This document shows, one piece after another, positions 8,535 through 27,759 of a stretch of 64,000 nt of DNA. The translations under genes and the position numbers were made by a program. Below the pieces are notes generated by a model. It saw only the letters and a list, made by a program, of their open reading frames with translations, did not search any database and was not told the DNA's origin. The stretch is taken from contig SUYO01000002.1 in assembly GCA_015060385.1 (NCBI GenBank), positions 124,001 to 188,000 on the forward strand, given 5' to 3'. Numbering within the stretch: position 1 is the first letter of the stretch; each line of letters begins with the position of its first letter. This stretch comes from Bacteroidales bacterium (GTDB taxonomy: Bacteria; Bacteroidota; Bacteroidia; Bacteroidales; UBA932).

Positions 8535-8572
8535 GCAAAGAAAAGTGCGATGATGCTAAGAAACGGAAAAAT
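8535..8572. repeat. 38-bp direct repeat, copy 2
   Basis: gcaaagaaaagtgcgatgatgctaagaaacggaaaaat; see 5049..5086. Confidence 0.85.
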
Positions 8573-8636
8573 CTTCCTGATTTCACCACATAAATTTTTC
8601 CGTATTACCCTAACTGCTGAACTTCATTGAAAAAAC

Positions 8637-9143
8637 ATGAAGAATTATCGTCTGGCAGTCGACGAAAACGGATCACCATTCGTCCTGAACAGCAAAGGCT
8701 CGATCGATTTCGGGTACATCACTGAAGAAATGAACCTCCCGGCAGCACCTATCAGGGTTGCTGAGGGAGATGAAAGTTATGGACTTGCACATATGATCAA
8801 GAACCATTCTGATCAGTTATCCGAATGTGGATTCGTTGACGTGACATCGTTCGTAGAATATGTGACAAATCATTTCACAACTATCAAGGAAGGTCATAGC
8901 GGATCATATCTTCTTGAAGTGAATGAAGACAGGAACCATACATTGTTCATATCCTTGTCCAGAACCGAAGATTATTGGAAGGTAATCAGTGGAGGAGTGT
9001 TCAGACTGAAGTATTCCAGAAATAAGAAAAAGGTCTATTCCGTACCCGCAATCCGGATGCCTGAACCTGTCTCTCAGGCAAAGGTTCCTGCTTCTGGCGA
9101 GATTCAACAGGACTCAACCGAAGCGAGCGGGAATTCCTTATAG
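8637..9143 (+). CDS. Small protein, tandem paralog 1; possibly a phage-type Barnase/EndoU/RelE-like nuclease domain
   Basis: 168 aa; YGLAHMIKNHSDQL..GF..V..FVEYVTNHF..I.EG....LLEV pattern; N-terminal 44 aa identical to 9194..9661. Confidence 0.55.
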   Translation: MKNYRLAVDENGSPFVLNSKGSIDFGYITEEMNLPAAPIRVAEGDESYGLAHMIKNHSDQLSECGFVDVTSFVEYVTNHFTTIKEGHSGSYLLEVNEDRNHTLFISLSRTEDYWKVISGGVFRLKYSRNKKKVYSVPAIRMPEPVSQAKVPASGEIQQDSTEASGNSL

Positions 9144-9144
9144 A

Positions 9145-9187
9145 CCTTTTCTATCTGCAAATATACAAAATTCATTCAAAATCAATG
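9145..9187. repeat. 43-bp direct repeat, copy 1
   Basis: ccttttctatctgcaaatatacaaaattcattcaaaatcaatg, identical at 9713..9755. Confidence 0.95.
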
Positions 9188-9193
9188 CTTTCA

Positions 9194-9661
9194 ATGAAGA
9201 ATTATCGTCTGGCCGTCGATGAAAACGGATCACCATTCGTCCTGAACAGCAAAGGCTCGATCGATTTCGGGTACATAACTGAAGAAATGAACCTCCCGGC
9301 AGCGCCTATCAGAGTTGCAGAAGGAAACGAACGGTATGGATTATTACATATGGAACAGAGGCATGGTGAACAAATACGGGATAACGGGTTTTCTACGGCT
9401 CTGGAATTTGTTGAATATGTAACAATCAATTTTGATAGGATACGGCAAGGAAACAATGACACCTGTCTTCTTGAGGTAACAGGAGGGAATCATAATGAAA
9501 CCCTATTCGTAAGACTATTTCAAAGTGAAGGCTACTGGAAAGAGATAAGCGGGGGTGTTTTCAATCTGCGATACTCAAAAAAGAAAAAGGAAATCTACTC
9601 CGGCTCTGACAACCGGCCACTGCAGCCTGCTTCTGACAGTGAAGGTTTGGCCCCACAGTGA
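9194..9661 (+). CDS. Small protein, tandem paralog 2; same possible nuclease family (track start 9185)
   Basis: YGLLHMEQRHGEQIRDNGFSTALEFVEYVTINFDRIRQGN; paralog of 8637..9143. Confidence 0.55.
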   Translation: MKNYRLAVDENGSPFVLNSKGSIDFGYITEEMNLPAAPIRVAEGNERYGLLHMEQRHGEQIRDNGFSTALEFVEYVTINFDRIRQGNNDTCLLEVTGGNHNETLFVRLFQSEGYWKEISGGVFNLRYSKKKKEIYSGSDNRPLQPASDSEGLAPQ

Positions 9662-9712: not shown

Positions 9713-9755
9713 CCTTTTCTATCTGCAAATATACAAAATTCATTCAAAATCAATG
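9713..9755. repeat. 43-bp direct repeat, copy 2
   Basis: Identical to 9145..9187; the two copies flank the second paralog. Confidence 0.95.
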
Positions 9756-9770
9756 AATTTATATGATTTT

Positions 9771-12113
9771 TTACTCCTTCTTCAGCACTTCAGCCGGGTT
9801 TGTGCGCGCAGCGCGGAGCGTCTGCCAGAGGACGGCAAGCAAGGAAGTGCAGACTGTTAATGTAACTGCAATTGCGGTCGGGAGCGCATATGATATGTCC
9901 ATGAATGAATATTCTGTCATGTAGGTCTTCATTACATGTAAGCCAAGCGGTGCACCGAGCAGACAGGCTGTTGCAGTCAGGAACATGTAGGTCCTGATGT
10001 TCCGCAGGGTTTCGCTTCTGACAGTGCCTCCGTGTATCTTGTGGACTGCTATGCTTTTCGTGTTTTCGTTGGCATAGTATGAACTCATTCCAAGCATTCC
10101 CAGGATTGATATGAGTATGGAAATGATGGTAAAAAGCCGTACTGTCTTCATCATTCTGTTCTGCTCGAACATGGCCACATCTCTGAATTCTTCCGGATAG
10201 ACGCAGTTTTCAGGAATGCCATATATTATCGAACCTGGTTCTTCCATGGCCAGTTTTGTGTTAAGGTCTATCAGAGCTTTCTTGACTTCTTTACGGTTAC
10301 CAGACAGTTCCATGATATTATATATAAGTCCCTGAGTATCAGGAGTGATGACGACCAAACGTCCCGGATCGGGAGTTTCCGTCTTTCTTGTTACCAGTAG
10401 GAAGTCTTCTATTATTCCTCCAAAGTGATAGTCTGATCTGCCGGTTATAGCGAATATACTTCCTGCAGGCCCGTTCTGCACATCTTCATATGTCAGTCCG
10501 AGATTATTCATGAGCCGTTCAGATATCCAGACAGACTTAATGAGATCTGTATTGAAATCCTGCTTGACCTGAAAATCCATGATGCGGAAAGCTGTTGTAT
10601 CACATAAAAACACATCGGCCTCTATGAGTTCTCCATCTGAAGTCCTCAGCCATTCCCAAAAACCAGCCTGAATCTGCGAGTTTGCCTTGCCAATACTTTT
10701 GACATATGGTGTATTCAGCAGGGCAGCATCATACTTCTCACCATTGGCATATATGATACCGATATCCATATTATTGAATCCCATGGGCTCATTCGCCCTG
10801 AGCTTCATGTCCGCTTCAAGGCAGCAAGCGATTACAAGCAGGGTAGCAGCCAATGTGTTCTGGACGCATATGAATATCTTACCGAAGATCATCTTGCGTT
10901 TCTTGCGGAATGTACCTTTGGTTACTTCTATCGGCTTGTAACTCATAGCCATCAGCGCTGGAGCCAGACCTGCAAACCCACCTACGGTTACTATCAGCAG
11001 CAGAATAATGACAATGGAATCCAGACCGAGAGAGATGTTAAGTTCCGGCATGTTCATCAGTCTCTTCACCAGTGGAACAGCTGCCCATGCGATCAGAATG
11101 GCAAGGAATGTACATATGCTTGTCATGCTCAGGCTTTCCGTCAGTTGGTCAAGGATGATCTTCTTTCTGTCAGCTCCCACAAGCCTCATAGTCGCAAGAA
11201 CATTGCTTCTCTTGGATGTCTGAGCGAACGACAGGTTTATGTAGTTCAGGATAGCAGAGAGCAGTAAGGTCAAGCTGATTATGACCATGACTGTCAATAT
11301 ACCTTGCAAGTCGCCGCCATTCAGACCATTCTTTTGATACTTCACATATAGATCGTCAAGTCTGTGCGCGAATAGATTCTTGTTCAACATCTGAATGTAT
11401 TCGTCCCACTTTGGGAAATGGTTTCTGATCAGGTCATGAACCTTATCTGATAATTCTTCCTGAGTTATGTGACCGGATGTCCTGACAAATATCTGGTCTG
11501 TAGTTGAAGCTTCATATTCGATAAGTGACTTGCCTGCCTGAGTTTCGGCTGCCACAATCACCTCTGTGTTGAAAATCTCATAAGTATAGTCTTCGATAAT
11601 TCCAATAACAGCCAATATAACTTCAGATTCAGTTGAACGACCCACTATTTTGCAATCTAACGTCTGACCCATCGCTTCCTGAACTCCTCCGAACATAGAT
11701 ACAGCCAGGCTTTCAGTTATGAGTGCATTACCTTCATGTTTCAAGGAACTGATATCTCCTGCAAGAACCTTCTTAGGAAACATGTCAAAGAAACCGTCTG
11801 TTACTGCATAACCAATATGTCCTGAGAGATCTTCACCATTCACGACACGAATATGACCATATGACAGTCCGCAAAACTCCTCAATTTCCGGAATCTCATT
11901 CAAGAATTCGGTCATCACCAATGGTCCATTATAATCCGAATGACAGGCCAGCGAATATATATTCCTATGATCCGGATAGATCCATGTCTTGGTATGGATA
12001 TCCCAAGCAAATATCGCCGTGAATATCACGAACGCCAGCGACACACTCAACCCCACCGCCATGATCGCGGTGTAAAGCTTGTTTCTCGATAGGAATCTCA
12101 GGTAACTTTTCAT
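9771..12113 (-). CDS. ABC transporter permease, FtsX/MacB_PCD family (P7)
   Basis: 780 aa; MKSYLRFLSRNKLYTAIMAVGLSVSLAFV...LWQTLRAARTNPAEVLKKE. Confidence 0.9.
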   Translation of the reverse strand: MKSYLRFLSRNKLYTAIMAVGLSVSLAFVIFTAIFAWDIHTKTWIYPDHRNIYSLACHSDYNGPLVMTEFLNEIPEIEEFCGLSYGHIRVVNGEDLSGHIGYAVTDGFFDMFPKKVLAGDISSLKHEGNALITESLAVSMFGGVQEAMGQTLDCKIVGRSTESEVILAVIGIIEDYTYEIFNTEVIVAAETQAGKSLIEYEASTTDQIFVRTSGHITQEELSDKVHDLIRNHFPKWDEYIQMLNKNLFAHRLDDLYVKYQKNGLNGGDLQGILTVMVIISLTLLLSAILNYINLSFAQTSKRSNVLATMRLVGADRKKIILDQLTESLSMTSICTFLAILIAWAAVPLVKRLMNMPELNISLGLDSIVIILLLIVTVGGFAGLAPALMAMSYKPIEVTKGTFRKKRKMIFGKIFICVQNTLAATLLVIACCLEADMKLRANEPMGFNNMDIGIIYANGEKYDAALLNTPYVKSIGKANSQIQAGFWEWLRTSDGELIEADVFLCDTTAFRIMDFQVKQDFNTDLIKSVWISERLMNNLGLTYEDVQNGPAGSIFAITGRSDYHFGGIIEDFLLVTRKTETPDPGRLVVITPDTQGLIYNIMELSGNRKEVKKALIDLNTKLAMEEPGSIIYGIPENCVYPEEFRDVAMFEQNRMMKTVRLFTIISILISILGMLGMSSYYANENTKSIAVHKIHGGTVRSETLRNIRTYMFLTATACLLGAPLGLHVMKTYMTEYSFMDISYALPTAIAVTLTVCTSLLAVLWQTLRAARTNPAEVLKKE

Positions 12114-12215
12114 GTGTTAGGCTATCTATTTGTTAATCAGTGTTTTAGTTGATTAGCCTGCAACCCCGGGGCGGCAGGCTAATCGGGTAAGTTGTTGACG
12201 TGCAGTGTTTTATCC
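12114..12215 (-). repeat. 102-bp inter-permease spacer P6/P7 with hairpin
   Basis: Contains gattagcctgcaaccccggggcggcaggctaatc. Confidence 0.95.
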
Positions 12216-14528
12216 TCATTCCTTCTTCAGCGCCTCGGCGGGGTTCGTCCTGGCAGCGCGGAGCGTCTGCCACAGTACGGCGAGGATGGCGATCAAGAAG
12301 GACAGGGCGATTGCGGATGCATATATCCAGAATGTATTGCCGATCTTTACAACTTCATTTAAAGATAGATGACTTAACAGGAAGTATATGAGCGGCATGG
12401 CTATGATGTCAGCAATCAGTACTATCTTCATGTAAGCCTTGATGTTATTGACAGTCTCTGTCTCGATTGTTCCGCCAAAGATCTTCCTGATGGCTATCTC
12501 CTGCCTCCTTTCAGACGCAAAGTAAACGCTCATACCCGTGAGTCCCAGCATAGTCATAATTATTACCAGAATCATCATGGTTCTCATGAGGACTACAATA
12601 GCCTTTTCTTCTGAAATGTTGCCTTTGTGAACCTCCATCACATAACTTGAAGCATAGCCGAAATGCATGAGGTCCGTAACTTCCTCTCCGGATATCTTTG
12701 AGTAGGCATCAGCTATAATTCTTCTTGCCGTCTCATGATCCGGAATAGTCTTTATTGCAAGGTGCTTTTGCCAGATGTTTTCTTTTGGAGTGACCAGGAC
12801 AAATGTGATCGCTTCACCAGGGCGGTCGCTCTGTGACGGGAAATCCTGAATCATACCCGCTATATTCGTCGTGCTGAAATTCTCTGTCTGGAGGATCTTA
12901 TCCAGAAGACCGGGGATTTCATCGCATTCCTGTTGTGCCTGCGGAGTCATCCAGATACCACATTTGTTATCACTGTCGGCATGAGACAAGATCTCAAAAC
13001 CGAAGGAGTCGAATGCATCTTCATCGCAGTGAACATATGAATATAAGGAGAATCCCATATCGGAATACTGAACTGCCCCTAGCGTTGCAAATCCAGGGAT
13101 ATTGTGTGTCAGACCGACATTCAGAATCTCTGGCCTTCCTTTCAGGATATCGAGCATACCTTCTGTATTGAATTTTCCGTTTCTCGGTGCGAACCAGAAC
13201 ACATCATCGATATCGCAGTTGTAGTTCACATTGCGTAGCTGGGAGAAGCGAGCCTCCATATATAAAGTGACTGCAATAAGCACAACGGATAGAAGGCTTT
13301 GGAATCCGATGAAGATTCTGCTCATGATCTTTTTGCTGTGGTAGCGGAAATCTCCTTTAGTGATATCCAGAGGAGTGAAACGTGAAGCGATCAGAGCGGG
13401 CGTTATTCCGCAGATGAGACCCGTAATGATTATCAACGCCATGAAAATAATGATGTTGGCTGGTGTCCATGATAAAGCCATGTTGCCGGTTCCGGCTCCG
13501 GTGTTGTTCATGAATGAATTCCATACATCTGAGGTGATGTCACTTAGAAGAAGACCGAAAACAAAGCATATGGCCGTAAAGGTCATGGATTCAAGACAGT
13601 ATTTGAAGACGATGTTTCTCTGACTTGCTCCGTTGAGCTTTCTCATGGCCATTTCCTTCGCCCTTTTCGTTGTAAGTGCGACGCTGAGATTTATATAGTT
13701 CAGCAGAGGTATGCTGAAAAGCACGATACAAAGTATTCCCAATATAATGAGCATAGATATCGGATTGCTTTCTATTCCTATGTATGCGGACTCATCTGTA
13801 GTAATCTTATCATACCTGATCAGATCATATGGCGCATTCCTGAAATCCTCTCCCCAGAATTCAATCATGGTATTCTTGACCTTGGCCTTCACCTCATCCA
13901 TGTCTGCAGACGGATTTACCGAGAAGAAGGTCATCGAGCCTCTATGGCCATGTATATTGTCATTATGGCCTGACTTTCTGATGGCCTCATTGTTCATGAG
14001 GATATCGCAGCCGGAAAGCACATTGCTGCCATATTCGTCAAAGACAGCGTTTACAATATATCTGTTCGAGTTGTGATCGATCTCCCTTCCTATCACAGGA
14101 CCGCTCTTAGCCAGATAATCTGCAAATTCCTTTGAAACAGCGATGCTGTTTGGAGTGTCAAGGAAATCGATGCCTCCTTTACTGAACTTTGCTGGGAAGA
14201 AGTAAAAGAAATCCTTGTCCACATAATGGATCTTCCTGTTTGTGTTCTCTATGTCATACCAGGCATTGTTCAGGATCGGGCTGGTCACTTTGTCGATTTC
14301 CGGCACCCTCTCTTTCAGGAAATCTCCGAATCCCGGCGAACTTACCTGCACATAGTCAACACACAGGCTATAAATGTTCTTATAGTTATCATGTCCCTTG
14401 GATATCCGTGCTATATTCGTATAGAAACATATCATCGGTATCACGAACGCCAACGCAAGGCTCAGTCCCACGACCTCGATCGCGGTGTACAGTTTGTTTC
14501 TTGAAAGGAATCTCAGGTAACTTTTCAT
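12216..14528 (-). CDS. ABC transporter permease, FtsX/MacB_PCD family (P6)
   Basis: 770 aa; MKSYLRFLSRNKLYTAIEVVGLSLALAFV...LWQTLRAARTNPAEALKKE. Confidence 0.9.
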   Translation of the reverse strand: MKSYLRFLSRNKLYTAIEVVGLSLALAFVIPMICFYTNIARISKGHDNYKNIYSLCVDYVQVSSPGFGDFLKERVPEIDKVTSPILNNAWYDIENTNRKIHYVDKDFFYFFPAKFSKGGIDFLDTPNSIAVSKEFADYLAKSGPVIGREIDHNSNRYIVNAVFDEYGSNVLSGCDILMNNEAIRKSGHNDNIHGHRGSMTFFSVNPSADMDEVKAKVKNTMIEFWGEDFRNAPYDLIRYDKITTDESAYIGIESNPISMLIILGILCIVLFSIPLLNYINLSVALTTKRAKEMAMRKLNGASQRNIVFKYCLESMTFTAICFVFGLLLSDITSDVWNSFMNNTGAGTGNMALSWTPANIIIFMALIIITGLICGITPALIASRFTPLDITKGDFRYHSKKIMSRIFIGFQSLLSVVLIAVTLYMEARFSQLRNVNYNCDIDDVFWFAPRNGKFNTEGMLDILKGRPEILNVGLTHNIPGFATLGAVQYSDMGFSLYSYVHCDEDAFDSFGFEILSHADSDNKCGIWMTPQAQQECDEIPGLLDKILQTENFSTTNIAGMIQDFPSQSDRPGEAITFVLVTPKENIWQKHLAIKTIPDHETARRIIADAYSKISGEEVTDLMHFGYASSYVMEVHKGNISEEKAIVVLMRTMMILVIIMTMLGLTGMSVYFASERRQEIAIRKIFGGTIETETVNNIKAYMKIVLIADIIAMPLIYFLLSHLSLNEVVKIGNTFWIYASAIALSFLIAILAVLWQTLRAARTNPAEALKKE

Positions 14529-14630
14529 ATATTAGGCTATCTGTTTGTTAATCAGTATTTTAGTTGATTAGCCTGCAGCCCCGGGGCGGCAGGCTAATCG
14601 GGTAAGTTGTTGACGTGCAGTGTTTTATCC
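14529..14630 (-). repeat. 102-bp inter-permease spacer P5/P6 with hairpin
   Basis: Near-identical to 12114..12215. Confidence 0.95.
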
Positions 14631-16994
14631 TCACTCCTTCTTCAGCGCCTCGACAGGGTTCTCCGAAGCAGCGGAATAGCTGCGTAGGAGAACGACTGCG
14701 GCGGTAAGTGCAGTTATGATCAGGTAGGCAAGCAGGAATATCCAGACGGACATGTCTGTGTGGTATGCGAAGCGCGACAGCCACATGTTCATGATCACTA
14801 CACTCATAGGTACAGCCAGAAGGAATCCGATGCTGCTGACAATGACATATTTGCCGAGCAGTGACTTGATTATCTCCCATGTTGTCGCTCCGTTTACCTT
14901 CCTGATGGCGATCTCCCTCCTCATTATCTGGGTTTCGAAATAGACGATCCCAAGTACACCGATAAGTGCGATAAGAAGGCAGAGGATTGAAGAACTGTTG
15001 ATCAGTCTGCTCTGACCGATCTCCTTACGGTACATGTTCTCTATGTCGTCTTTGAGATACGTGGATGTAACAGAAATTTCATCTCCATTCGCTCCACTGC
15101 TGCTGACCAGGTCTCTGAGGGATTTTTCAATCCATTTGACTGTCTCAGAGATATCATCACTTCTGAACTTGAAGAACATGTCTGCACAATTCAGATTGTC
15201 GATATGATAAATCATAGGTTCACGCTCGTGCATCATAGGCCTTGCATTGAAATCTTCAACAACACCGATGATCTCGTATTCCTGCCTGTACATGCTCATG
15301 ATTTTATTACCTATCTGGTAATCCGGATAAGTAGCGGCAAATGTTTCATTGATCACTGCAACCCCGAATTCCCCTTTATTAGGAAACCTTCCGTCCACCA
15401 GCTTGAAATCGAAAAAGTCAAAATAGTTGTCATATCCGCTTCTGAAACTGTACCATACCGGCTCATTGTCCTTGGACATGAGTTCTGAACGGGATGAAAG
15501 TCCTTCGGACATCGGAGAATCTCCGCATGTCACATCAATGATTTCAGGATTCTTCATGAATTCATCAAAACACCTGTGCCAGCGGTACCAAAGATTGACA
15601 TTTACTCGTACGACATTCTCCGAAATGAATCCGTTGTCCTCCTGCATCATGTAGTCAGTCTGCCGGCTGATCATCAGCCCGCAGATCAGGAATACGCATG
15701 AAAGCACGAACTGCGAGACCATGCTGATTCTTCGGAAAGCCGTACCTTTCCCCGAAATCGCAAAATCGCCTTTCAGGACCATGCCGGGCTCGAACGACGT
15801 GCTGTATAAGGCAGAGACGAGCCCGCCCGCAAGTGCCGCAACAAGAGCGACAGTGAGGCCGATGGCAATCGCAGGAACATTGTCGCCGACAGCCAGCGAG
15901 CAGCAGCTGAAAGATGCGAACTGCGAGCCGGCAACAGCTTCCATAAGACCGAGGGCAATTCCGAATGATACGAGACAAATAATGAAATTGTTCTTCAGCT
16001 GAACAAGTATAAGTCGTCCTCTACTTGCTCCATACACCTTCTCTACATTTATCTCATTGATTGTGAATGGAATCGAAGCGATAGCAAAGTTGATGTAGTT
16101 GAAGACTGCAATCAGTAGGAAAAGTATGGAGATGGAGAGAAGGACCAGAGTCTGTGTACTGTCTGCATATGGCTTTACTCCAGGTCTTATGTCATCCGAG
16201 TAGTGAATATCGGACAGAGACGTCAGGCGCAGGTTAGGATATATGTCCTTTTCATATTTTTCTCCCATGCCGGCAGCAACCGCATCGTCATGAACCAGAT
16301 TCCTGAAAGTCATCCTGATGCTTTCCAGCACATCTTCTGCACGCGCCCCATCCCTCAGGCGGAAAAATCCGCAATGTAAGCTGTAATTCGGCATACTCAG
16401 GTCGTCGTCTCCTTCATTGACAAGAAGGCCGTTGATGACACTGCAATTCTCCGGCAGAGTCTTATATACACCGACTATCTTATATTCATTGATATTGAAC
16501 TCAGTAGTCAAATGTTCGCCGACAGGACTTCTGTCGCCAAAGATCGTCTTTGCATGATTCTCAGAAATCAGAGCAGCGTTCTTTACATTATACTCATCCA
16601 GCGTTCCGTCAACGATCTCAATACTGAATACATTCGGGAATGAAGAGTCCGTCTCGACCTGAGCTATCTCATGTTTCCTTACTGTGCCGTCAACATCAGA
16701 ATAAACGGTCTCCAGTTCAAGACCTCGAATATCCTTATAGTCACATGCGACTTCTATATCAGGAGAACATGCTTCGAATGCTTCGATATACGGCCTGCTG
16801 ATTCCCTGAGAATATGTGTAATCATCAACATCATAAACGACAGGCATCTCGAATCTGTATATGTTCTTGTAATCCTCGAAATTACTGTTGAACCGGTAGT
16901 CATGCCAAACCTGTGCAAACAGTGCCAGAAACACCATCAGCGACACACTCATTCCGATGATGTTCAATACCATGCTTATTCTTGTCTTTCTCAT
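14631..16994 (-). CDS. ABC transporter permease, FtsX/MacB_PCD family, second subfamily (P5)
   Basis: 787 aa; MRKTRISMVLNIIGMSVSLMVFLALFA...SENPVEALKKE; FETQIMRREIAIRKVNGAT resembles P2. Confidence 0.88.
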   Translation of the reverse strand: MRKTRISMVLNIIGMSVSLMVFLALFAQVWHDYRFNSNFEDYKNIYRFEMPVVYDVDDYTYSQGISRPYIEAFEACSPDIEVACDYKDIRGLELETVYSDVDGTVRKHEIAQVETDSSFPNVFSIEIVDGTLDEYNVKNAALISENHAKTIFGDRSPVGEHLTTEFNINEYKIVGVYKTLPENCSVINGLLVNEGDDDLSMPNYSLHCGFFRLRDGARAEDVLESIRMTFRNLVHDDAVAAGMGEKYEKDIYPNLRLTSLSDIHYSDDIRPGVKPYADSTQTLVLLSISILFLLIAVFNYINFAIASIPFTINEINVEKVYGASRGRLILVQLKNNFIICLVSFGIALGLMEAVAGSQFASFSCCSLAVGDNVPAIAIGLTVALVAALAGGLVSALYSTSFEPGMVLKGDFAISGKGTAFRRISMVSQFVLSCVFLICGLMISRQTDYMMQEDNGFISENVVRVNVNLWYRWHRCFDEFMKNPEIIDVTCGDSPMSEGLSSRSELMSKDNEPVWYSFRSGYDNYFDFFDFKLVDGRFPNKGEFGVAVINETFAATYPDYQIGNKIMSMYRQEYEIIGVVEDFNARPMMHEREPMIYHIDNLNCADMFFKFRSDDISETVKWIEKSLRDLVSSSGANGDEISVTSTYLKDDIENMYRKEIGQSRLINSSSILCLLIALIGVLGIVYFETQIMRREIAIRKVNGATTWEIIKSLLGKYVIVSSIGFLLAVPMSVVIMNMWLSRFAYHTDMSVWIFLLAYLIITALTAAVVLLRSYSAASENPVEALKKE

Positions 16995-17056
16995 AGATCT
17001 TCGTTCTTTGGTGATACCTTCTCTCTAATCTTCAAAATTCTCAGGTAACTTTTCAT
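16991..17056 (-). CDS. 21-aa leader ORF MKSYLRILKIREKVSPKNEDL, stop overlapping the P5 start (ATGA)
   Basis: Minus-strand reading from ATG at 17056; begins with the MKSYLR codons of the other permeases; TGA at 16993..16991 overlaps ATG at 16994..16992. Confidence 0.5.
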   Translation of the reverse strand: MKSYLRILKIREKVSPKNEDL

Positions 17057-17158
17057 AAATTGTGTTATCTACTTATTAATCAGTGTCTTAGCTGATTAGC
17101 CTGCAACCCCGGGGCGGCAGGCTAATCGGGTAAGTTGTTGACGTGCAGTGTTTTATCC
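17057..17158 (-). repeat. 102-bp inter-permease spacer P4/P5-leader with hairpin
   Basis: Near-identical to the other spacers; 102 bp when measured to the leader ATG. Confidence 0.95.
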
Positions 17159-19435
17159 TCACTCCTTCTTCAACGCCTCGGCCGGGTTGGTGCGGGCGGC
17201 GCGGAGCGTCTGCCAGAGTACGGAGGCGATGGAAATCGCGAAGGACAATAAGACCGAAGCCACATATATCCACCAGACATTTTGCGGTACCGATCCAAGT
17301 GCGATAAAGAACTGCCGGACTAGTTCAGCTACACATATTCCCAGCACAGAAGCGATTCCCGTCATGATCAGGTAGAACCGGAGGTTTCGGATAATTTCAC
17401 CATTTTCCGTCGCTCCGAATATTCTCCTGACCGCGATCTCGTTCTTCCGTTCATTCATGAAATGCATGCTCATTCCGATGAGTCCCATCATGGACATGAT
17501 CACGACCAGCACCATCACTATTCCGATCATCTCGATGATCATTCTGAAAGGTGCAGTTGTTTCCTCGAATATGTCGAGAACATATTTTGCCTTTTCCATA
17601 CCGGTGATGTCGCCATCCGGAGCGATCTTGTTCATCTGCGCTTCGTTGAACAGGGACTGTACCAGCTCACGGCCTTTCTTATGATCTCCTGCAATCTTGA
17701 AGACAACAGAGGTCCTTATGGTCTGCTCCTTGACGGATGCAACTGTCAGACATGGACCACCTCCCTCAAGCGGAGCCATACCCGGAAAGTCATTGACGAT
17801 GCCTGCAATATGGTCCGTTACTGTAGATTTGTACAGATGATCAAGGACGCGTGGATCTTTCTCTATGAACGATTGCGTGAATGGAGTCAGCCACAGGCCA
17901 TTGAAATCATTGCCGTTCTGCTGGATGATTTCGAATCCCAATGTCTCGAATCCGCTTCGGTCGCATTCGATGTGGCTGAAAAGATATTGAGGGGTGTCCG
18001 GAATGTTGATGACACCGCTCAACCCCTGGGCCGGAACCTGAGCGGCACGGCCGCATGATATAATTTCAGGGTATTCAGCTGCTTTTGACAGCATTATCGC
18101 TGCATTTTCAGGGGTTACCCGCATATAAACCACATCTTCGATGTCGCAATTGAAATCAACCTTCATGGCATCCCTGTGACATTTGTCGGCCATCAGCACG
18201 ACGGACAGCAGGACAACCGAAAGAACCGTCTGAAAGCTGATGAAGAATTTTGAAAGCCTTCTTTTGCTGTGTAGCCTGAAATCACCTTTGGTAATGTCCA
18301 GCGGACTGAATCTTGATGCCATCAGGGATGGGGCCAGACCGGCAGCAATTGAGGTGATGAGAATGATCGATGCGGATATCGTGATGGTCCTGATGTTCCA
18401 GATCGGCTCGATTGAAAAGTCTGTGAATCCGTTCATTGCAAGCAATCCTTTGATGAACTGACCGATATATCCGCTCATCAGATATCCGAGTACAAAACAT
18501 ACAGTCGTAAATGCCAATGATTCGCACAGACTACTGATTATCAAGCGCATGCGTGTAGCTCCTACTAGTTTTTTAGTTGCATTCTCCTTTGCTCTGGTAG
18601 TCGAGAGCGCTACGTTCAGGTTGATATAGTTGAGGATGGCAGTAATGAAGATCAGAAGCAGAAGGGCAGCAATCATGCCCATTGAAGCCTGCTGATATTT
18701 CATGAACTGTCCGTAATTCACCATACATGTCGGCAGTTCATCATATCTTACAAGCCCCCTGAAAACCCCGGCCTCCTTGTACTTCAGATATGTTTCGTCT
18801 CCTGCATTGAATGTATCTGCCGCTTCCAGAATACGGTTTTCTATTTCCTTCCTGTCATGTCCATTCCTTATTGATACAAATGTCACTCCGCTGCCAATGC
18901 CTCCGTTTTCACGAAGATCCTTGAATGGAGCAATGTTCTGCAGTATTTCGCATTCCTTCAGGATGTCATTCCTGCTGTTTTTGAAGACAGCGGCTACAGT
19001 ATAATATTTATCCTCTATCTTTACAGCCTTGCCGATAGCCGATCCATCCGCAATCATTGCCGCGAATTTCTCCGATACCGCAATGTTTTCCCTTGAATCC
19101 AGGAATGATTCGTCTCCTTCTACGAACTCGAACGGGAAGAAGTAGAAGAAATCCTTATCAACGATGCTTCTTGGGCCCAGCATAGCGGAAGTAGTCTGTT
19201 CTATTTCCGGGATACTCTCCTTCAGGTAATCACCGAAATTGACTTCTGTATACAGATTACCCATATACGCTACAGCGTATACATCCTCATATCTTTCATG
19301 AGCATGAGATCTTTCATATTTGTCAACGGTGACATTGATCAAAGGAATTACGAACGCCAACGCAAGGCTCAGTCCCACGACCTCGATCGCGGTGTAGAGC
19401 TTGTTTCTCGATAGGAATCTCAGGTAACTTTTCAT
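17159..19435 (-). CDS. ABC transporter permease, FtsX/MacB_PCD family (P4)
   Basis: 758 aa; conserved N- and C-terminal cassettes. Confidence 0.9.
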   Translation of the reverse strand: MKSYLRFLSRNKLYTAIEVVGLSLALAFVIPLINVTVDKYERSHAHERYEDVYAVAYMGNLYTEVNFGDYLKESIPEIEQTTSAMLGPRSIVDKDFFYFFPFEFVEGDESFLDSRENIAVSEKFAAMIADGSAIGKAVKIEDKYYTVAAVFKNSRNDILKECEILQNIAPFKDLRENGGIGSGVTFVSIRNGHDRKEIENRILEAADTFNAGDETYLKYKEAGVFRGLVRYDELPTCMVNYGQFMKYQQASMGMIAALLLLIFITAILNYINLNVALSTTRAKENATKKLVGATRMRLIISSLCESLAFTTVCFVLGYLMSGYIGQFIKGLLAMNGFTDFSIEPIWNIRTITISASIILITSIAAGLAPSLMASRFSPLDITKGDFRLHSKRRLSKFFISFQTVLSVVLLSVVLMADKCHRDAMKVDFNCDIEDVVYMRVTPENAAIMLSKAAEYPEIISCGRAAQVPAQGLSGVINIPDTPQYLFSHIECDRSGFETLGFEIIQQNGNDFNGLWLTPFTQSFIEKDPRVLDHLYKSTVTDHIAGIVNDFPGMAPLEGGGPCLTVASVKEQTIRTSVVFKIAGDHKKGRELVQSLFNEAQMNKIAPDGDITGMEKAKYVLDIFEETTAPFRMIIEMIGIVMVLVVIMSMMGLIGMSMHFMNERKNEIAVRRIFGATENGEIIRNLRFYLIMTGIASVLGICVAELVRQFFIALGSVPQNVWWIYVASVLLSFAISIASVLWQTLRAARTNPAEALKKE

Positions 19436-19537
19436 GTATTAGGCTATCTGTTTGTTAGTCAATGTCTTAGCTGATAAGCCTGCAACCCCGGGGCGGCAGG
19501 CTAATCGGGTAAGTTGTTGACGTGCAGTGTTTTATCC
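19436..19537 (-). repeat. 102-bp inter-permease spacer P3/P4 with hairpin
   Basis: Near-identical spacer, one stem mismatch (gataagcctgc). Confidence 0.95.
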
Positions 19538-21901
19538 TCACTCCTTCTTCAGCGCCTCAGCCGGGTTCGTCCTGGCAGCGCGGAGGGTCTGCCAGAGAAC
19601 CGAGGCGAGGGAGATGGCCAGAGCAAGCAGCACAGCTGCGGCGAACGGCCATATGGTCAGGTCAATCCTGTAGGCAAACTCTTCGAGATAGCGTCCGCAG
19701 AATATCCATGCGACCGGAATGGCAACGGCACTTCCTATGATGGTGATGATCATATATTCCGATATGTTCCTGCGTGTCTCGCTCGTCATCGTTCCGCCGA
19801 AAACCTTGCGTATGGCGATGCCTTTCTCTCTTTCCGAAGCGAAGTAGGTGCTCATGGCGACAAGACCGAGTATGGACAATATGACTGCCAGTATTGCGGA
19901 GATCTTGAGCAGCTTTACAGTCCTGTTGTTTTCCTCCAGTACCCTTACCATCATGTCTTCGACATAGCCGAAATCCCAAGGTTCGATATAGGCTCCGTTA
20001 TATTCATCGGAGAACTTCCGGTATATCCTGTCGAATGTTTCAAAGGCCTCGTCGTGATTTTCATCGGTCTCGATCAGAATGGTGTTGTTATAGAGCCCGA
20101 AGTCATCTACCGGAAGGACGATCACAGCGACCATCGACTGTTCCATTGTCTCGTTCATAGCATTGTCTGAGGCTATATTGCCTAATACTCCGCCGAAGTT
20201 ATCGATCCTGCTTCGGTTGAAGTTACCGTCCCATGATTTTGCAATTTTCTCAGCAGCTTCTCTCGAATCAAAGCAGTTGTAAAGACTTTCAGTGAACCAT
20301 ACCGAATGGGCGAGGGGAGCACCGGAATCTACCTTGATATCGAAATCCCACATCCCGAATGCTTCGGTATCACATATCAGCAACGCCACAGATGTCAGGT
20401 CAGTGCTGTTTTCCAACTGAATGGCAGTGAAGAAATTCATATTTGTAGGGTATCCTCTGGAAAGTGCCACCTTCTTCACGAACGGCAATTGTCTGATTTC
20501 ATCCATGACAGGTATTATATCTCCAGTTTCTACCACATCCGTTGACAGGATGAATTTATCTTCGATGTCCGCTCCCAAAGGCATATTGATCATATGGTTC
20601 ATCTGCCTGTCGAGAATAATCGCCGAGGCGATCAGAGTGATGGCGACGATGTTCTGAAGCAGGATGAACACTCTGTTCAGACCGGCTCTGCTCTTTCTTC
20701 TGTATGTGCCGTTTACAATGCTTATAGGCTTGATGGATGATATGTTCAGAGCAGGGATAAGGCCGCAGATGCTGCCGAGCAGCACAACGAAAAGTACATA
20801 AATGGAGATGCTGGCAGCATTGAACGGTATTGCAACAGTCTGTCCGTCAATGATACGTCCGATATATGGAGCAAGGGCGACCGCAATGCCCACGGCTGCG
20901 ATGGAGCATACTGCCGTAAATCCGATTGACTCAAGTATGTACTTTACTGCGATGTGGGCCTTTTCTGCACCGACAAGACTTCTTGTGGCCATTTCCTTCG
21001 CTCTTTTGTTCGTCAGGGCGAGATTCAGGTTGATGTAGTTGATGACTGCGGAGACCAGAAGAAGCAGGGAAACTATGAGGAGGATGATTATCTGTCTCCT
21101 GTCTCCCATATTAAGAAAATCGTTGATCTCTTCACTGGAAAAGTAAAATCTGTCAAATCTCTCTATACCTATCATATCGGCAAACATTGCTGTTCTGTCA
21201 GCCGGCATCCTCTCTCCCCAGAACTGTTTGAAGACAGTCTGTATCTTTTCCAGGAGTACTGCCTCGTCAGTTGACTCTGCCGCCTTGATGAATGTTGTGG
21301 CGGACAGGGTGAATACCGGGTTCTTCTGCGCGCTGTCGTTCAATGGACCATCACCACTGCAGATGAAGTCCATGTACTTCCAATATTTATGATCGAAATC
21401 CTTGATGACTCCTGTCACGGTCAATGCCTGGGAAGGATATTCTGTCGGAATTATCTTCATTCCGACTGCCAGTTCCGGCTTTCCTGCCAGTTTGACTGCA
21501 TATGATTCACTGACGATGATGTCAGTATGTGATTTCATGCATCCGGCATCCCCGATGACGAATTCATAGTCGAATATGTCGAAGAAGTCCCCTCTGACGG
21601 CAAGTCCTCTGGTAACCAGCCTTTCATCTTCATACTCCATTACGACCTCCTCGATATCGTTGACAAGGGTGATTTTCTCCATTTCAGGAATCTGTTCCTT
21701 CAGCGGATCCAATGCTCCATATGGCATATACTGAGTAAGGATAAACACCCTCTCATAATCCGGATTCTCGTGCGATATGCTGTATTCCTGCCATACATAG
21801 CTGCCGATCAGCAGCACAAACGCCAGCGCAACGCTCAGACCCACGACCTCGATGGCGGTGTACAGCTTGTTTCTCGATAGGAATCTCAGGTAACTTTTCA
21901 T
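19538..21901 (-). CDS. ABC transporter permease, FtsX/MacB_PCD family (P3)
   Basis: 787 aa; conserved N- and C-terminal cassettes. Confidence 0.9.
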   Translation of the reverse strand: MKSYLRFLSRNKLYTAIEVVGLSVALAFVLLIGSYVWQEYSISHENPDYERVFILTQYMPYGALDPLKEQIPEMEKITLVNDIEEVVMEYEDERLVTRGLAVRGDFFDIFDYEFVIGDAGCMKSHTDIIVSESYAVKLAGKPELAVGMKIIPTEYPSQALTVTGVIKDFDHKYWKYMDFICSGDGPLNDSAQKNPVFTLSATTFIKAAESTDEAVLLEKIQTVFKQFWGERMPADRTAMFADMIGIERFDRFYFSSEEINDFLNMGDRRQIIILLIVSLLLLVSAVINYINLNLALTNKRAKEMATRSLVGAEKAHIAVKYILESIGFTAVCSIAAVGIAVALAPYIGRIIDGQTVAIPFNAASISIYVLFVVLLGSICGLIPALNISSIKPISIVNGTYRRKSRAGLNRVFILLQNIVAITLIASAIILDRQMNHMINMPLGADIEDKFILSTDVVETGDIIPVMDEIRQLPFVKKVALSRGYPTNMNFFTAIQLENSTDLTSVALLICDTEAFGMWDFDIKVDSGAPLAHSVWFTESLYNCFDSREAAEKIAKSWDGNFNRSRIDNFGGVLGNIASDNAMNETMEQSMVAVIVLPVDDFGLYNNTILIETDENHDEAFETFDRIYRKFSDEYNGAYIEPWDFGYVEDMMVRVLEENNRTVKLLKISAILAVILSILGLVAMSTYFASEREKGIAIRKVFGGTMTSETRRNISEYMIITIIGSAVAIPVAWIFCGRYLEEFAYRIDLTIWPFAAAVLLALAISLASVLWQTLRAARTNPAEALKKE

Positions 21902-22003
21902 AAATCGTGTTATCTGCTTATTAATCAGTGTCTTAGCTGATTAGCCTGCAACCCCGGGGCGGCAGGCTAATCGGGTAAGTTGTTGAGTGGTAAGGTTTTA
22001 GTG
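21902..22003 (-). repeat. 102-bp inter-permease spacer P2/P3 with hairpin
   Basis: Hairpin conserved; P2-proximal ~20 bp diverged (gagtggtaaggttttagtg). Confidence 0.9.
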
Positions 22004-24409
22004 TCATTCGCTCTTCAACGCTTCGGCGGGGTCGGCAGTAGCGGCGTTCCAGCTGCGGAGGACGACCACGCCGACCGTAACGCCCATCACGGCTACGAGG
22101 GCGATGGCGAACACCCACCAGTAGACAGGGCAGCGGTGTGCGAATGTGGCAAGGTATCTGTCGACGATCAACCAGCCAATCGGAGCGGCCACAGCAAAGC
22201 ATACAAGCACGATCTTCACGAACCTGCTGCTGAACATTTCCAGTATGTCTCGGACTGTAGCGCCGTTCACTCGACGCAGAGAGATCTCCCGGCGGCGATA
22301 CTGTGTCTCGAACATCACCAGACCGAAGACTCCCATCAGGGAAATAATGATGGCTACAAGAGTGAACAGGCTTATGAGCTGAGAAAGCGCCTCCTCCTTT
22401 CTGTATGTGGCGTTCAGGTTTTCATCAAAGAAGTGGATGTCCCATTCATCCGGCGAAACATTGTATTCCCATTCGCTCAGGACATCTGCTATGTGCTTCA
22501 TGACAGCCTGGTAATCAGCCTCGGCCGATACTCTTATGAATGCAGTAGTCGGATACCACCATGGGTTTGTTCCGAAAACATACAGAGCAAACGGTCGTAC
22601 TTCATGTTTGAGCGACTGGAAGCTGAAGTCTTCGCAGAAACCGGCGATGTCCGTTTCAGAGGCGTGACCGGTCACCTTGTCTTCAAGTGTGAATCCATAT
22701 TTCCTGCGTGCCGCATCGTTGAAGATGAATACACCGTTCTCGCTGTGGTTGTCTTCCGGCAGGAAGGTGCGGCCTTCGATGATGTCGATTCCCATGAATT
22801 CAGGGAAGTCGTATGCAACCGGATAACATTCGAAATTGATGTTCTGTCCGTTCCACTGACGGCCCCAGCCCATTCGTTCTTCTGCTATGAGCTTGCCCGC
22901 CGCCCATGTCACGTCCTTGATCTGAGGATCTGTCTTCATCCTTTCTTCCACAGCCTCGGCGTTGTATCCGATGTAATTCGTCGTATGTACATAAAGCAGC
23001 TGTTCCTTGTCAAAGCCCATGTCGAAATCTACCATGTACCTGCGTTGTATCGATATGAACGCGGAACAGATGATCAGGACCATCGATATCACGAACTGCA
23101 TGCCGATGAGGGTATAGCGGAGCGCCTTTCCGGCCTTCGTCGCACCGAACGACCCTTTCAGGACCATTGCCGGTTCGAAGGACGTGATGTAAAAGGCAGG
23201 ATAGAGGCTTGCGACGATCGAAATCGCGACGGCAATTACTACGGTCCATACGGTCACGCCTATGTTCATGGCGAAGGTGCTGTCTGCGGAGATAAGATGC
23301 ACGAGCTGGCTCATGTTGAAGACCATAACCAAGGCGAATGCGAGTACAAGTGCAAGGAATATGAGCCTGATGCTTTCGGCTATCGTGCCAAGGATCAGGT
23401 TTCTGCGGGTGCTTCCAAGGACTTTTTTCGTGTTGACAGCCCTTATGCGTTCGGGGACTAACGCAAAGAAGAAGTTTATATAGTTTATGAAGGCGATGCC
23501 TACTATGAGTATGGCCACGACAAGCAGGATAAGTGTTGTCGTCCTGTTTCCTCTTTCCATCTGGGCATTGTTATAATACAGGCTTTCCAGAGGGATGAAG
23601 TCGGCTACAGCCATATTCAGCATGTCATTCACCTCCTTGTCGAATTCTTCCTGGGTCATACCCATCTCTTCAGGGGAAGGCATGTTTCCGAAGAACCGTT
23701 CCATGTAGTATCCGCGGCTTACTTGTGCCAGTTCCTTTTCCATTTCCTCCACCTGCGACTCATCATGAAGTTTCACGAAATAGGTAAATCCCCATTCTGT
23801 GAAATTTTCGATGCTCCTGTCCGCCATGTTGCTCAGCAGGTCGAGATCCTTGAAATGGGAGTTGTCCGGCATGTCCTTGAATACTGCGACTATGGTACGC
23901 ATGTCTGTACCCTGTCCAAGGCTCGTTCCGACCTTGAGGTCGAATCTCTTTGCTGCACTCTCGCTGATCGCAAGAGTGTTCCTGTTTATGACATCATCCA
24001 ATGAACCCTCCATGGCTTCGAATCCTACGGCCTTCAGCGCGGTTCCGCTGATGTCCGTATGGTTCATGGTAAGGACTTCCTTTTCGCCATCCCTCTCTAT
24101 CCAGAAACTTTCGCCTGCAGTGTTGGTCAGATTGATGATACCTCCGAATTCGATGTTCGGCGAATACTGCATGAGCTTTTCTGCCAGAGGACGGCAATAA
24201 TACAGGGAGTTGTATTTTGCTTCTCCCTGTGCATTGACCGAGAGAGCAAACACTTTCTCCGAATCCTTGATGTCCTTGTTGAAGTTCAGGTCATAATTGA
24301 CCTGTACGAGAATGATGTAGAAAGCGGCAAAGGCAACCGCCATGCCGAGCACATTGAGTATGCCAGACATAGCCGATCCTCCTTTCCTGAATATGTTGAA
24401 TGATGCCAT
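22004..24409 (-). CDS. ABC transporter permease, FtsX/MacB_PCD family, second subfamily (P2)
   Basis: 801 aa; MASFNIFRKGGSAMSGILNVLGMAV...VFETQYRRREISLRRVNGATV. Confidence 0.88.
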   Translation of the reverse strand: MASFNIFRKGGSAMSGILNVLGMAVAFAAFYIILVQVNYDLNFNKDIKDSEKVFALSVNAQGEAKYNSLYYCRPLAEKLMQYSPNIEFGGIINLTNTAGESFWIERDGEKEVLTMNHTDISGTALKAVGFEAMEGSLDDVINRNTLAISESAAKRFDLKVGTSLGQGTDMRTIVAVFKDMPDNSHFKDLDLLSNMADRSIENFTEWGFTYFVKLHDESQVEEMEKELAQVSRGYYMERFFGNMPSPEEMGMTQEEFDKEVNDMLNMAVADFIPLESLYYNNAQMERGNRTTTLILLVVAILIVGIAFINYINFFFALVPERIRAVNTKKVLGSTRRNLILGTIAESIRLIFLALVLAFALVMVFNMSQLVHLISADSTFAMNIGVTVWTVVIAVAISIVASLYPAFYITSFEPAMVLKGSFGATKAGKALRYTLIGMQFVISMVLIICSAFISIQRRYMVDFDMGFDKEQLLYVHTTNYIGYNAEAVEERMKTDPQIKDVTWAAGKLIAEERMGWGRQWNGQNINFECYPVAYDFPEFMGIDIIEGRTFLPEDNHSENGVFIFNDAARRKYGFTLEDKVTGHASETDIAGFCEDFSFQSLKHEVRPFALYVFGTNPWWYPTTAFIRVSAEADYQAVMKHIADVLSEWEYNVSPDEWDIHFFDENLNATYRKEEALSQLISLFTLVAIIISLMGVFGLVMFETQYRRREISLRRVNGATVRDILEMFSSRFVKIVLVCFAVAAPIGWLIVDRYLATFAHRCPVYWWVFAIALVAVMGVTVGVVVLRSWNAATADPAEALKSE

Positions 24410-24552: not shown

Positions 24553-25233
24553 TTACAGTTCGTTCTTTACATCGCTGACGATCTCTCCGTCGAAGAGGTT
24601 CACGATCCTCTGAGCGCAGGATGCATCCTTCTGCGAGTGGGTCACCATCACGATGGTCGTGCCTTCCTTGTTAAGTTCTGTGAGAAGGTCCATCACTTCC
24701 TTGCCGTTCTTTGAGTCGAGGTTACCGGTAGGCTCATCGGCGAGGATCAGCTTAGGGTTCGAAACGACTGCACGGGCGATTGCAACGCGCTGCTGCTGAC
24801 CTCCTGAGAGCTGCTGAGGGAAGTGCTGCGCTCTGTGGCTGATGTTCATCCTCTTGAGCATCTCTGTAACACGCTGCTTGCGCTCTGATGCACTGATGTT
24901 CAGATACTTGAGCGGAAGCTCCACATTCTCATACACATTAAGCTCGTCGATCAGGTTGAAGCTCTGGAACACGAAGCCGATGTTGCCCTTGCGGAACTTT
25001 GTGCGGTCCTTCTCCTTGAGCTTGGCAACCTCCTGTCCGAGAAGCATGTAGCTTCCGTCAGTAGGGTTGTCAAGAAGACCGAGGATGTTCAGGAGGGTAG
25101 ACTTGCCGCATCCTGAAGGGCCCATGATGGCCACGAATTCGCCGTCATTGATTTCAAATGAAACCTTGTTGAGTGCTGTTGTCTCGATTTCCTCTGTACG
25201 GAAAACCTTGCAAAGATCTGTTACTGTAATCAT
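24553..25233 (-). CDS. ABC transporter ATP-binding protein, LolD/MacB type
   Basis: [15 protein letters not shown] Walker [15 protein letters not shown] signature, [12 protein letters not shown] Walker B. Confidence 0.95.
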
Positions 25234-25362: not shown

Positions 25363-27759
25363 CTATTCATTCTTCAATGATTCAACAGGATTGCTCCTCG
25401 AAATACGCAGGCAGTTGATTATCACCGCTCCTACGATGAGCACCATGACTATGATGTCCGCCATGAGGAAGTACCAAGGAGTCAGCGTGATCTTTTCCGC
25501 AAACTGCCTGAGCCATCCTTCTGCCGCAAGCCATGCACAGATGTCTCCGATGACGACGGCAATGATGATGAGCCTGAATACATCCTTTATGAATATGTTC
25601 ATGATCTCATTTGTCGTTGCACCGTTGATCTTCCTGACAGCCATTTCTTTGCTTCTGCGTACAGATTCGTCACGGATGTATCCGATGAGTCCGAACAGGG
25701 CGATAAGAACGGAGAATATGCATCCTACCATGATGGTGTTTCTCATCTTCCTGTCTTCCGAATAGAGGCCTCTGATCTCTTCTTTGAACGAGACTATCTC
25801 AAGTCTTCTTTCGGGGTATAGCTTGTCAACAATCTGCTGTATCCTTCCGATGATGTCCTGGTTTACCTTATTCAGCTTTATCATCACAAGCGGCATCTTG
25901 TATGAATCCTCAGCGTTTCCGTCCTCCCAGAACTTCACGCTCGGGCGCGGATCAGAGGCATTCATGGTACCGATCCTGTAGTTCTCATATACTCCGCTTA
26001 TGGTGAATGACTGTTCAGCAGTCTGGCTGTGTTCCGTGATGAGGAGCTGCTTGCCGACAGCTCCGTCGCTCCAGTCCTCGAAGTCCATCATCTTCTCCAC
26101 GAAACTTCGGCTTACGGCAACTTCATTTGCTGCCCTAGGGGCTCTTCCGTCTATGAACGGTATTTCAAGGATTTCAAAGAATCCGTCTGTTCCTTCATAC
26201 TGGTCTGCGACATTGAATAGCTCCTTGTATTGCCCTCCTTCCATGCTGTATATGTTGTTGCCGCTTGCTCCTCCGGCTGGGAAATCGTAACTTCTTTCGA
26301 TGTCAATCACTTCCGGCAGTTCTTTAACCCTTTCAATGAATGGCTTGATCTCGCTGCCTGGCATGCTGTCGAAACTGCATCCTACCAGATTCTCGAACTC
26401 ATAGCCGGGATCATCGTTCATCGCTTTCTGATACTGCTTTGCAATCACGAGCATCATAGCGACAAGGAATACGTTTATCACAAACTGGACGAGCAGAAGA
26501 GCCTTCTTCCAGTTCCTGCGGTTCTCCTTATAGTTCTTCAGCGCCGCTGATACAGGAATCTTCGCGTACAGATAGCCCGGAACAATGGCTGAAACAAAGA
26601 ATATCAGGATGCAGACAATTGAAAGTGTGACTATGGTCTGAGGTATGAAAAGACCGTGAAGGGTCACTCCGAGCAGGCTTTCTATCACCGGCTTTGCCGC
26701 ATAGACTATCGCCGCTGCCACGATAAGCGATAGTCCCATGTTGACGGCAGTCTCTTTGAAGAGCACGCCGTAAATGTTGATGCCTTCAGCTCCATATGCC
26801 TTTCTGACTCCGACCTCTTTTGAGCGTTTCACTATTGCCGATATGGCGATGAGCACATAATTCATTACAGATATCGCGAGCAGAAGGAATGCTACAAGAG
26901 AAAGGATGAACATCATGTTCCTTGTATGCGGGTCAGATGTGTGGATGGTGCTGAATGGTCTGAGAGTGTACCATAGCTTCATACCCATAGCCTCATACTC
27001 CTCAATATCCTGATGGGTTTCCTGCATGAGCCTCATAGCGTCTTTCAAGGATGCAGGATCCACTCCTTCATGCAGTTTCACGAATCCTCTGTACCTGTCA
27101 TTGCCCATCCAGTTTTCAGTACTGGACTTTGACAATATTTCCATGGATATCAGCACATCATATGGGATGGTGCCGTTCTCCGGAAAGTCTTCATATACTC
27201 CGTTTATTGTAGCAAGAATATCAGGCATCTGGATGTTGCAGATCTGCTTTCCGATGATGTTCTCTATTCCTCCCATCTTTTCGGCAAAAGAACGGCTTAC
27301 CATCACGGAGCCCCACTCTCCGAGTGCCTTTTTTGGATTTCCAGCAAGAATCTCCCTGTCAAATACATCGAAGAAACAGGTGTCAACGATATTGGAAAAA
27401 CCTTCGACTTCATGTCCATCCTGATCTCTCCATATGTGCTGCTCGAAGAGTCCTGTCATTCTTGTCGCAGATTCCACTCCTGGCGCATATTGCTTGATAC
27501 CAGGGGCAATCGCTCCGCTGCACTGATTGAAATCGAATCCATCCTCTCCCTGGATGGCATTGCTGTATATCCAATATATCCTGTCAACGTCTTTGTAGAA
27601 GCCGTCATAGCTCATCTCGAAGCATACCTTGGCGATCAGGACCATTCCTATCGCCAGTCCCGTGCCGAGAGACAGTGCCTTTACTATTGTTTCCTTAAGT
27701 TTCATGTAGTCGGTTAATATGTTGATATCTAATTTGTTAAGTATGTATGCCTGCTGCAT
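25363..27759 (-). CDS. ABC transporter permease, FtsX/MacB_PCD family (P1); likely start 27705
   Basis: 798 aa; MKLKETIVKALSLGTGLAIGMVLIAKVC...RSNPVESLKNE. Confidence 0.88.
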   Translation of the reverse strand: MQQAYILNKLDINILTDYMKLKETIVKALSLGTGLAIGMVLIAKVCFEMSYDGFYKDVDRIYWIYSNAIQGEDGFDFNQCSGAIAPGIKQYAPGVESATRMTGLFEQHIWRDQDGHEVEGFSNIVDTCFFDVFDREILAGNPKKALGEWGSVMVSRSFAEKMGGIENIIGKQICNIQMPDILATINGVYEDFPENGTIPYDVLISMEILSKSSTENWMGNDRYRGFVKLHEGVDPASLKDAMRLMQETHQDIEEYEAMGMKLWYTLRPFSTIHTSDPHTRNMMFILSLVAFLLLAISVMNYVLIAISAIVKRSKEVGVRKAYGAEGINIYGVLFKETAVNMGLSLIVAAAIVYAAKPVIESLLGVTLHGLFIPQTIVTLSIVCILIFFVSAIVPGYLYAKIPVSAALKNYKENRRNWKKALLLVQFVINVFLVAMMLVIAKQYQKAMNDDPGYEFENLVGCSFDSMPGSEIKPFIERVKELPEVIDIERSYDFPAGGASGNNIYSMEGGQYKELFNVADQYEGTDGFFEILEIPFIDGRAPRAANEVAVSRSFVEKMMDFEDWSDGAVGKQLLITEHSQTAEQSFTISGVYENYRIGTMNASDPRPSVKFWEDGNAEDSYKMPLVMIKLNKVNQDIIGRIQQIVDKLYPERRLEIVSFKEEIRGLYSEDRKMRNTIMVGCIFSVLIALFGLIGYIRDESVRRSKEMAVRKINGATTNEIMNIFIKDVFRLIIIAVVIGDICAWLAAEGWLRQFAEKITLTPWYFLMADIIVMVLIVGAVIINCLRISRSNPVESLKNE

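Follow-up and report, generated by a model that had tools for sequence, protein, structure and literature searches.

REP-like palindromes in the spacers of a permease cassette array in a Bacteroidales exporter operon: sequence support for homogenisation at the cassette borders

The five 102-bp spacers of a permease array in the window, the whole stretch of 64,000 nucleotides that was analysed, are practically copies of a dispersed 90-bp REP-like element, an identity that was not recognised in the initial annotation. It is probable that this element has been copied between spacers together with the adjoining gene ends, that the resulting borders serve the turnover of permease cassettes, and that other species use palindromes of their own in the same way. 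REP-type repeats are already known; the combination found here is that of REP-like repeats inside an apparently recombining array of permease cassettes.

The locus, a TolC-HlyD-ABC exporter operon, has a single ATPase and a variable run of ~2.3-kb permease cassettes. On the minus strand the order is TolC, HlyD, P7, ABC ATPase, P6, P5, P4, P3, P2 and P1, with the spacers S5 to S1 separating P6 to P1; P0 is placed past P1, beyond two small plus-strand ORFs. The features are as follows, G numbers denoting genomes and G000 the genome of the window.

5958-8357, minus strand: permease P0, constant ends of the MKSYLR..LKKE type, borders apparently homogenised with Q2
9771-12113, minus strand: P1, MacB_PCD/FtsX permease (Pfam) with the constant ends MKSYLR..LKKE
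12114-12215, minus strand: spacer S1, P2 to P1, 102 bp; element 12123-12212, palindrome core 12151-12184
12216-14528, minus strand: P2, MacB_PCD/FtsX permease; orthologue of 87% aa identity in G183
14529-14630, minus strand: spacer S2, P3 to P2, 102 bp; element 14538-14627, core 14566-14599
14631-16994, minus strand: P3, permease of another subtype between the same spacers, without the MKSYLR start; 27% to P6
16991-17056, minus strand: 21-aa leader ORF ahead of P3, MKSYLRILKIREKVSPKNEDL and stop (from sequence and alignment)
17057-17158, minus strand: spacer S3, P4 to the P3 leader, 102 bp; element 17066-17155, core 17094-17127
17159-19435, minus strand: P4, permease; orthologues of 93/90/90/74/66% aa identity in G376/G334/G187/G304/G169
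19436-19537, minus strand: spacer S4, P5 to P4, 102 bp; element 19445-19534, core 19473-19506 with one stem mismatch
19538-21901, minus strand: P5, permease; orthologues of 70-84% aa identity in G187, G299, G392, G039, G376, G183 and G304
21902-22003, minus strand: spacer S5, P6 to P5, 102 bp; element 21911-22000, core 21939-21972, left arm diverged
22004-24409, minus strand: P6, permease adjoining the ATPase; position conserved in several congeners
24553-25233, minus strand: ABC ATPase, the only one of the operon; 95-98% aa identity across congeners
25363-27705, minus strand: P7, permease upstream of the ATPase
27820-29076, minus strand: HlyD-type membrane fusion protein
29097-30569, minus strand: TolC-type outer membrane efflux protein (OEP)
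G000:C27:115405-117780, same genome, outside the window: permease Q2, borders apparently homogenised with P0

Both Pfam families, MacB_PCD and FtsX, score above cut-off in the array permeases, save MacB_PCD in P4 (26.2 vs 27). The profile search placed the ATPase nearest to DarD and the permeases nearest to ADOP and DarB, a likeness to the DarBCDE darobactin-type exporter and ADOP families (NF038007/NF038008, TIGR03434). In contrast to those systems, all scores here lie below the curated cut-offs (116 and 178 bits against 622 for the ADOP family TIGR03434) and many permeases accompany one ATPase. The literature yielded no paper on tandem MacB/FtsX permease arrays of Bacteroidales and none on ADOP permeases. 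P3, whose best match among the permeases compared is P6 with 27% identity, is preceded by the leader, the stop codon (TGA) of which overlaps the P3 ATG at 16994 (ATGA). P3 thus belongs to another permease subtype, and the leader (MKSYLR... and stop) fused in front of it is what remains of a standard 5′ border. A sigma-54 activator response regulator and a histidine kinase adjoin Q1 and Q2 (L126:1074-3637, on G000:C27, outside the window), and the same pair closes the array in several congeners (G204, G304, G299, G026 and G039); the pair is likely the regulator of the operon.

The two small ORFs between P1 and P0, antisense to the permeases, are tandem near-duplicates (8637-9143 and 9185-9661, both plus strand; 168 and 158 aa) with 87% nucleotide identity over 179 bp. 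No Pfam or NCBIfam match was found for them; we take them to resemble PBECR/barnase-EndoU-like domains (YGLLHMEQRHGEQIR). In G376, G334 and G299, the last with four in tandem, comparable small ORFs lie next to permease cassettes or separate them. Both ORFs are followed by a direct repeat of 43 identical bp, CCTTTTCTATCTGCAAATATACAAAATTCATTCAAAATCAATG (9145-9187 and 9713-9755), and a 41-bp repeat, GCAAAGAAAAGTGAGATGATGCTAAGAAATGGAAAAATGTT (93%), is present at 5049-5089 and 8535-8575, once where an ORF begins and once 3.5 kb off.

The gaps between the permeases are each exactly 102 bp, as had been claimed, and the hairpin GATTAGCCTGC-N-GCCCCGGGG-NN-GCAGGCTAATC is common to 5/5 of them, against a chance expectation of 0 matches within the window. 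The third gap was correctly described as running to the ATG of a leader, a 21-aa ORF and not a permease, so that the ORF-to-ORF gap there is 164 bp. The one stem mismatch that the initial annotation had placed in P3/P4 is confined to the copy at 19473-19506 (GATAAG); the copy at 17094-17127 is perfect. Near identity of the spacers also had to be toned down: they are alike, with pairwise identities of 79-95%, but this means 5-21 differences per 102 bases. The left 44 nt are identical in S1-S4 and the left arm of S5 differs at 9 positions; the right arm is common to S3 and S5 (2 differences; 10-12 in other pairings). Crossover inside the spacers was considered by the four-gamete argument and is not claimed here, because a single tree, (S1,S2),S4 / S3,S5, accommodates the informative sites. 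The constant DNA also takes in coding sequence, ~85 nt at the 5′ and ~75 nt at the 3′ end of the genes, and the direct repeat (D1) that includes these ends is 269 nt long and 71-88% identical.

Alignment of 36 distinct copies by their CCCCGGGG centre defined the element as a 90-bp dyad with the consensus TAA-n4-YTGA-nnn-TCAR-n4-TTA-n-CC-GATTAGCCTGCCG-CCCC and its reverse complement. As it spans positions 4-93 of the 102-bp spacer, spacer and element are practically the same thing. A DNA search of the own genome recovered the five array copies (293-178 bits) and, at 13 other positions, the central part of the element, giving ~18 places in an assembly of 45 contigs and 75% completeness. With at most two mismatches allowed, the palindrome pattern has 16 matches in this genome, 7 in G056 and ~7 in G304, the only two of 399 sampled congeners in which it is present (0 matches in the 397 others), and the reversed-pattern control gave 0 matches. 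Many of the comparison genomes are metagenome-assembled. Among 85,488 named genomes, a set from which records of the own genome were possibly left out, exact matches were found solely in the ruminant-gut Bacteroidales MAGs RGIG8485 and RGIG7696. Of 12 copies examined, 11 are not within any ORF of 150 aa or longer. Being a short, dispersed and extragenic palindrome, the element resembles REP elements. Its consensus from 72 arms has TTAnCC before the stem, without GTAG or GTGG; lacking the GT[AG]G foot, it is termed REP-like and not a classical REP. Its 16 pattern matches and ~18 places in a 75% complete genome also stand far below the REP copy number, which is usually over 100 per genome (PMC2817692).

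The term REP-like is further justified in G056 (contig C140), where the element flanks a RAYT-type Y1 transposase gene, encoding a 333-aa Y1_Tnp protein, on its 5′ side and directly after the stop codon. This protein scores 29.3 with Pfam Y1_Tnp (cut-off 23) and, at E 1e-10, 41.5 bits with NCBIfam NF047646 (REP_Tyr_transpos), which is below the cut-off of 80. The HuH motif, NHVH or DHVH, and the Y motif, YIGNNP, are 57 aa apart and so depart from TnpA_REP subclass 2.6 (NH[LIV]H and YIH[QN]NP, ~82 aa apart); the Y motif agrees with the YIxNNP of subclass 2.4, and the motif spacing with neither 2.4 nor 2.6. Proteins like the G056 RAYT are found in 322/400 congeners, and the RAYT genes inspected in G026, G304 and G056 (a second gene) have their own palindromes alongside. 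The search of the own genome (75% complete) yielded no member of the matching RAYT subfamily; the best match (E 3.5e-8) is of another subfamily and has no element beside it. A RAYT would presumably be the mobiliser of the element in this genome.

Dispersed extragenic palindromes that flank a Y1 HuH gene are known from REP/RAYT (TnpA_REP) systems, or REPtrons (PMC2817692, PMC6006769, PMC8266576). The present family resembles them in that species-specific extragenic palindromes flank such a gene, and RAYT and palindrome change together between species. It differs in the lack of GT[AG]G, in copy number (~18 versus >100) and in its long dyad (90 bp, with TAA/TGA/TCA/TTA boxes). For Bacteroidetes TnpA_REP subclass 2.6, atypical structures that lack GT[AG]G have been documented (PMC6006769). 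With REPINs/BIMEs (PMC3116915) it shares the small, non-autonomous nature and two inverted arms, but it is one continuous palindrome with a CCCCGGGG centre and not two separate REPs.

Among the species examined, TolC, HlyD and the ATPase are conserved and the permease run differs in content and order. Two spacers of G026 are 94% alike and carry the palindrome that flanks the G026 RAYT (12 copies in the genome). The spacers of G187 are up to 91% alike, with its own RAYT palindrome, 8 of whose 13 copies are in the array, and those of G392 are 90% alike, again with its own RAYT palindrome (15 copies). At the P5-P4 junction, G000 has the present element and G187 another palindrome; the junction of G304, of 33 bp, has none. 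Such differing or absent palindromes indicate that the element is a later, repeated guest which the array does not need. Other repeats were observed as well, for example GTCATCCCCGACCTGATCGGGGATC units in permease spacers of G039 (L120) and G299 (L196) and GTTCTAGTGAAC..GTTCACTAGAAC in those of G299/G392 (L199); different repeats at the same junctions of congeners mean that the junctions attract many repeat types. Single cassettes are 97% identical in amino acids between G026 and G039 amid TolC and regulators of 80-86% (HlyD, 97%), which also suggests mosaic ancestry.

These junctions bear on the possibility of the spacer being under selection as a cis-acting RNA, for mRNA processing, stability or differential expression of the cistrons, with purifying selection alone keeping its five copies alike. 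The RNA hairpin is indeed stable (-25 to -29 kcal/mol, z -3.3 to -5.0), and the element is present in every junction between P6 and P1. Selection of this kind is nevertheless at odds with the unrelated or missing palindromes at orthologous junctions of other species, with the dispersal of the element outside the operon, and with an identity that covers unpaired, variable arm positions and third codon positions of the gene ends. It is already disfavoured by these observations and we consider it improbable, although the hairpin may add an effect on the polycistronic mRNA. An intrinsic terminator was rejected, the spacers being absent from the list of terminator-like sites and the stem having no T-run after it. 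An Rfam search of the region gave chance matches alone.

Outside the stem, the arms of the five array elements are 88% identical, against 55% (maximum 68%) among dispersed copies. This difference makes five independent insertions unlikely, and the array copies appear to descend from one another. A transposase with a site preference for the junction could have placed the element separately in each spacer, and insertions with different palindromes at the junctions of several species agree with such a preference; the flanking gene ends, which are alike as well, do not. For this array, independent insertion is thus already disfavoured and has little probability. A misassembly that joined unrelated permeases via the repeated spacer might be suspected in an assembly of 45 contigs at 75% completeness. 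It is very unlikely in view of the P5-P4 adjacency that recurs in G187 and G304, the private differences in each spacer, and the comparable arrays with alike spacers in several other assembled genomes.

For the reading that we prefer, copying of the element with the adjoining gene ends, borders were compared with interiors. The interiors of P0, P1, P2, P4 and P5 have 19-33% amino acid identity to each other; the array permeases are old paralogues. Orthologues of Q2 (73-79%) and of P0 (~60%) occur in several genomes each; P1 has no close orthologue in the genome set. P4 and its paralogue P2 share 46% of interior nucleotides and 95% of the 5′ border (third positions 86%), whereas P4 and its G376 orthologue share 90% of the interior and 76% of the first 84 nt (third positions 54%). 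Similarly, P0 and Q2 of the same genome are 59% identical in the interior and 95 and 93% at the ends, as opposed to 79% and 83 and 73%, respectively, for Q2 and its G039 orthologue.

The tree of the coding borders, a short alignment of 159 nt, joins P0 with Q2 (99/98) and rejects the clade of Q2 orthologues (p 0.026); at this length neither the P2/P4/P5 clade (p 0.18) nor the P4-orthologue clade (p 0.09) is decided. The interior tree rejects P0+Q2 (p 9e-61) as well as {P1,P2,P4,P5} (p 3e-35). Gene ends and interiors evidently have different histories, decisively so for P0/Q2, and the discordance suggests repeated recombination at the cassette borders. Over 68 permeases of 16 genomes, the nearest neighbour belonged to the same genome in 27% of cases by the 5′ border and in 1.5% by the interior (null 7%; label-shuffle p 0.0005). 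The paired comparison of best paralogue with best orthologue at the border in 16 genomes was not significant (Wilcoxon p 0.12 for 5′, 0.41 for 3′), which means that homogenisation is uneven, with a strong effect in some genomes and a weak one in others.

The initial annotation had pictured each permease as a cassette with constant borders and a variable interior, and the data support this picture: borders and spacers are alike within the genome, and interiors are old with orthologues elsewhere. Its suggestion of ongoing homogenisation is supported by the border/interior discordance and the different array orders in congeners. The opposite outcome that it had named, fixed copy number with tree-congruent ends and interiors, was not what was seen, as array order varies and the trees are discordant. 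The further idea of a reservoir for domain shuffling inside permeases found no backing, with 0 strong discordances between four interior segments in 68 genes and no interior mosaics. A recent tandem duplication or unequal crossover of a permease-plus-spacer unit with fast interior divergence afterwards, the expansion that had also been proposed and that constant borders, tandem order and same orientation seem to invite, is refuted as the origin of the present copies and hardly credible, since the interiors are so divergent, most have closer orthologues in other species, the clade {P1,P2,P4,P5} is rejected, no interior is a recent duplicate, and nearest neighbours by interior belong to the same genome in only 1.5% of the 68 genes. 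Unequal crossover may still be changing cassette number now.

In the explanation that we propose, a 90-bp REP-like element of a RAYT (HuH/Y1)-linked family would have entered one inter-permease spacer and would then have spread from spacer to spacer with ~80 nt of the adjoining gene ends. The spread would have proceeded via homologous recombination between paralogues, either by gene conversion, which is presumably the act of homogenisation, or by cassette replacement at the borders. Exchange tracts would end near codon 30 and ~25 codons ahead of the stop, as the interiors are too diverged to pair. Through the homology of the same ~270-bp borders, whole cassettes would be gained, lost and re-ordered, between as well as within species, and in other species the same process would run with the palindrome of each one's own RAYT. 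The sequence comparisons above support both homogenisation and turnover of cassettes at the borders.

Silent cassette arrays with conserved ends and a variable interior able to recombine are familiar from Neisseria pilS and Borrelia vls. The present array is similar in its variable interior between conserved ends and different in that each cassette is a full-length ORF and neither an expression site nor an interior mosaic was seen. Of the 90 novel duplication junctions sequenced in E. coli, 22 were located at REP sequences (PMC3161906). REP repeats are rearrangement sites in both cases, with dispersed REPs in starving cells there and a regular array with cassettes that differ among species here. 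Since REP repeats are hot spots of duplication junctions in E. coli, the palindrome may play an active role; that DNA ends or single-strand structures at the RAYT-linked spacer palindromes drive the exchange of whole cassettes between gut Bacteroidales species is a tentative proposal, to which we give a rather low probability.

The arrays offer a replicated natural test of the behaviour of REP-type repeats inside operons. In the same permease array, spacers of this kind have in several congeners been occupied by another resident palindrome, which was homogenised there. The exporter operon retains one ATPase, HlyD and TolC yet swaps its permeases as cassettes, and such permease exchange bears on how gut Bacteroidales alter what they export. 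If true, a palindrome-assisted platform for cassette exchange would reshuffle the exporter repertoire between gut Bacteroidales species.
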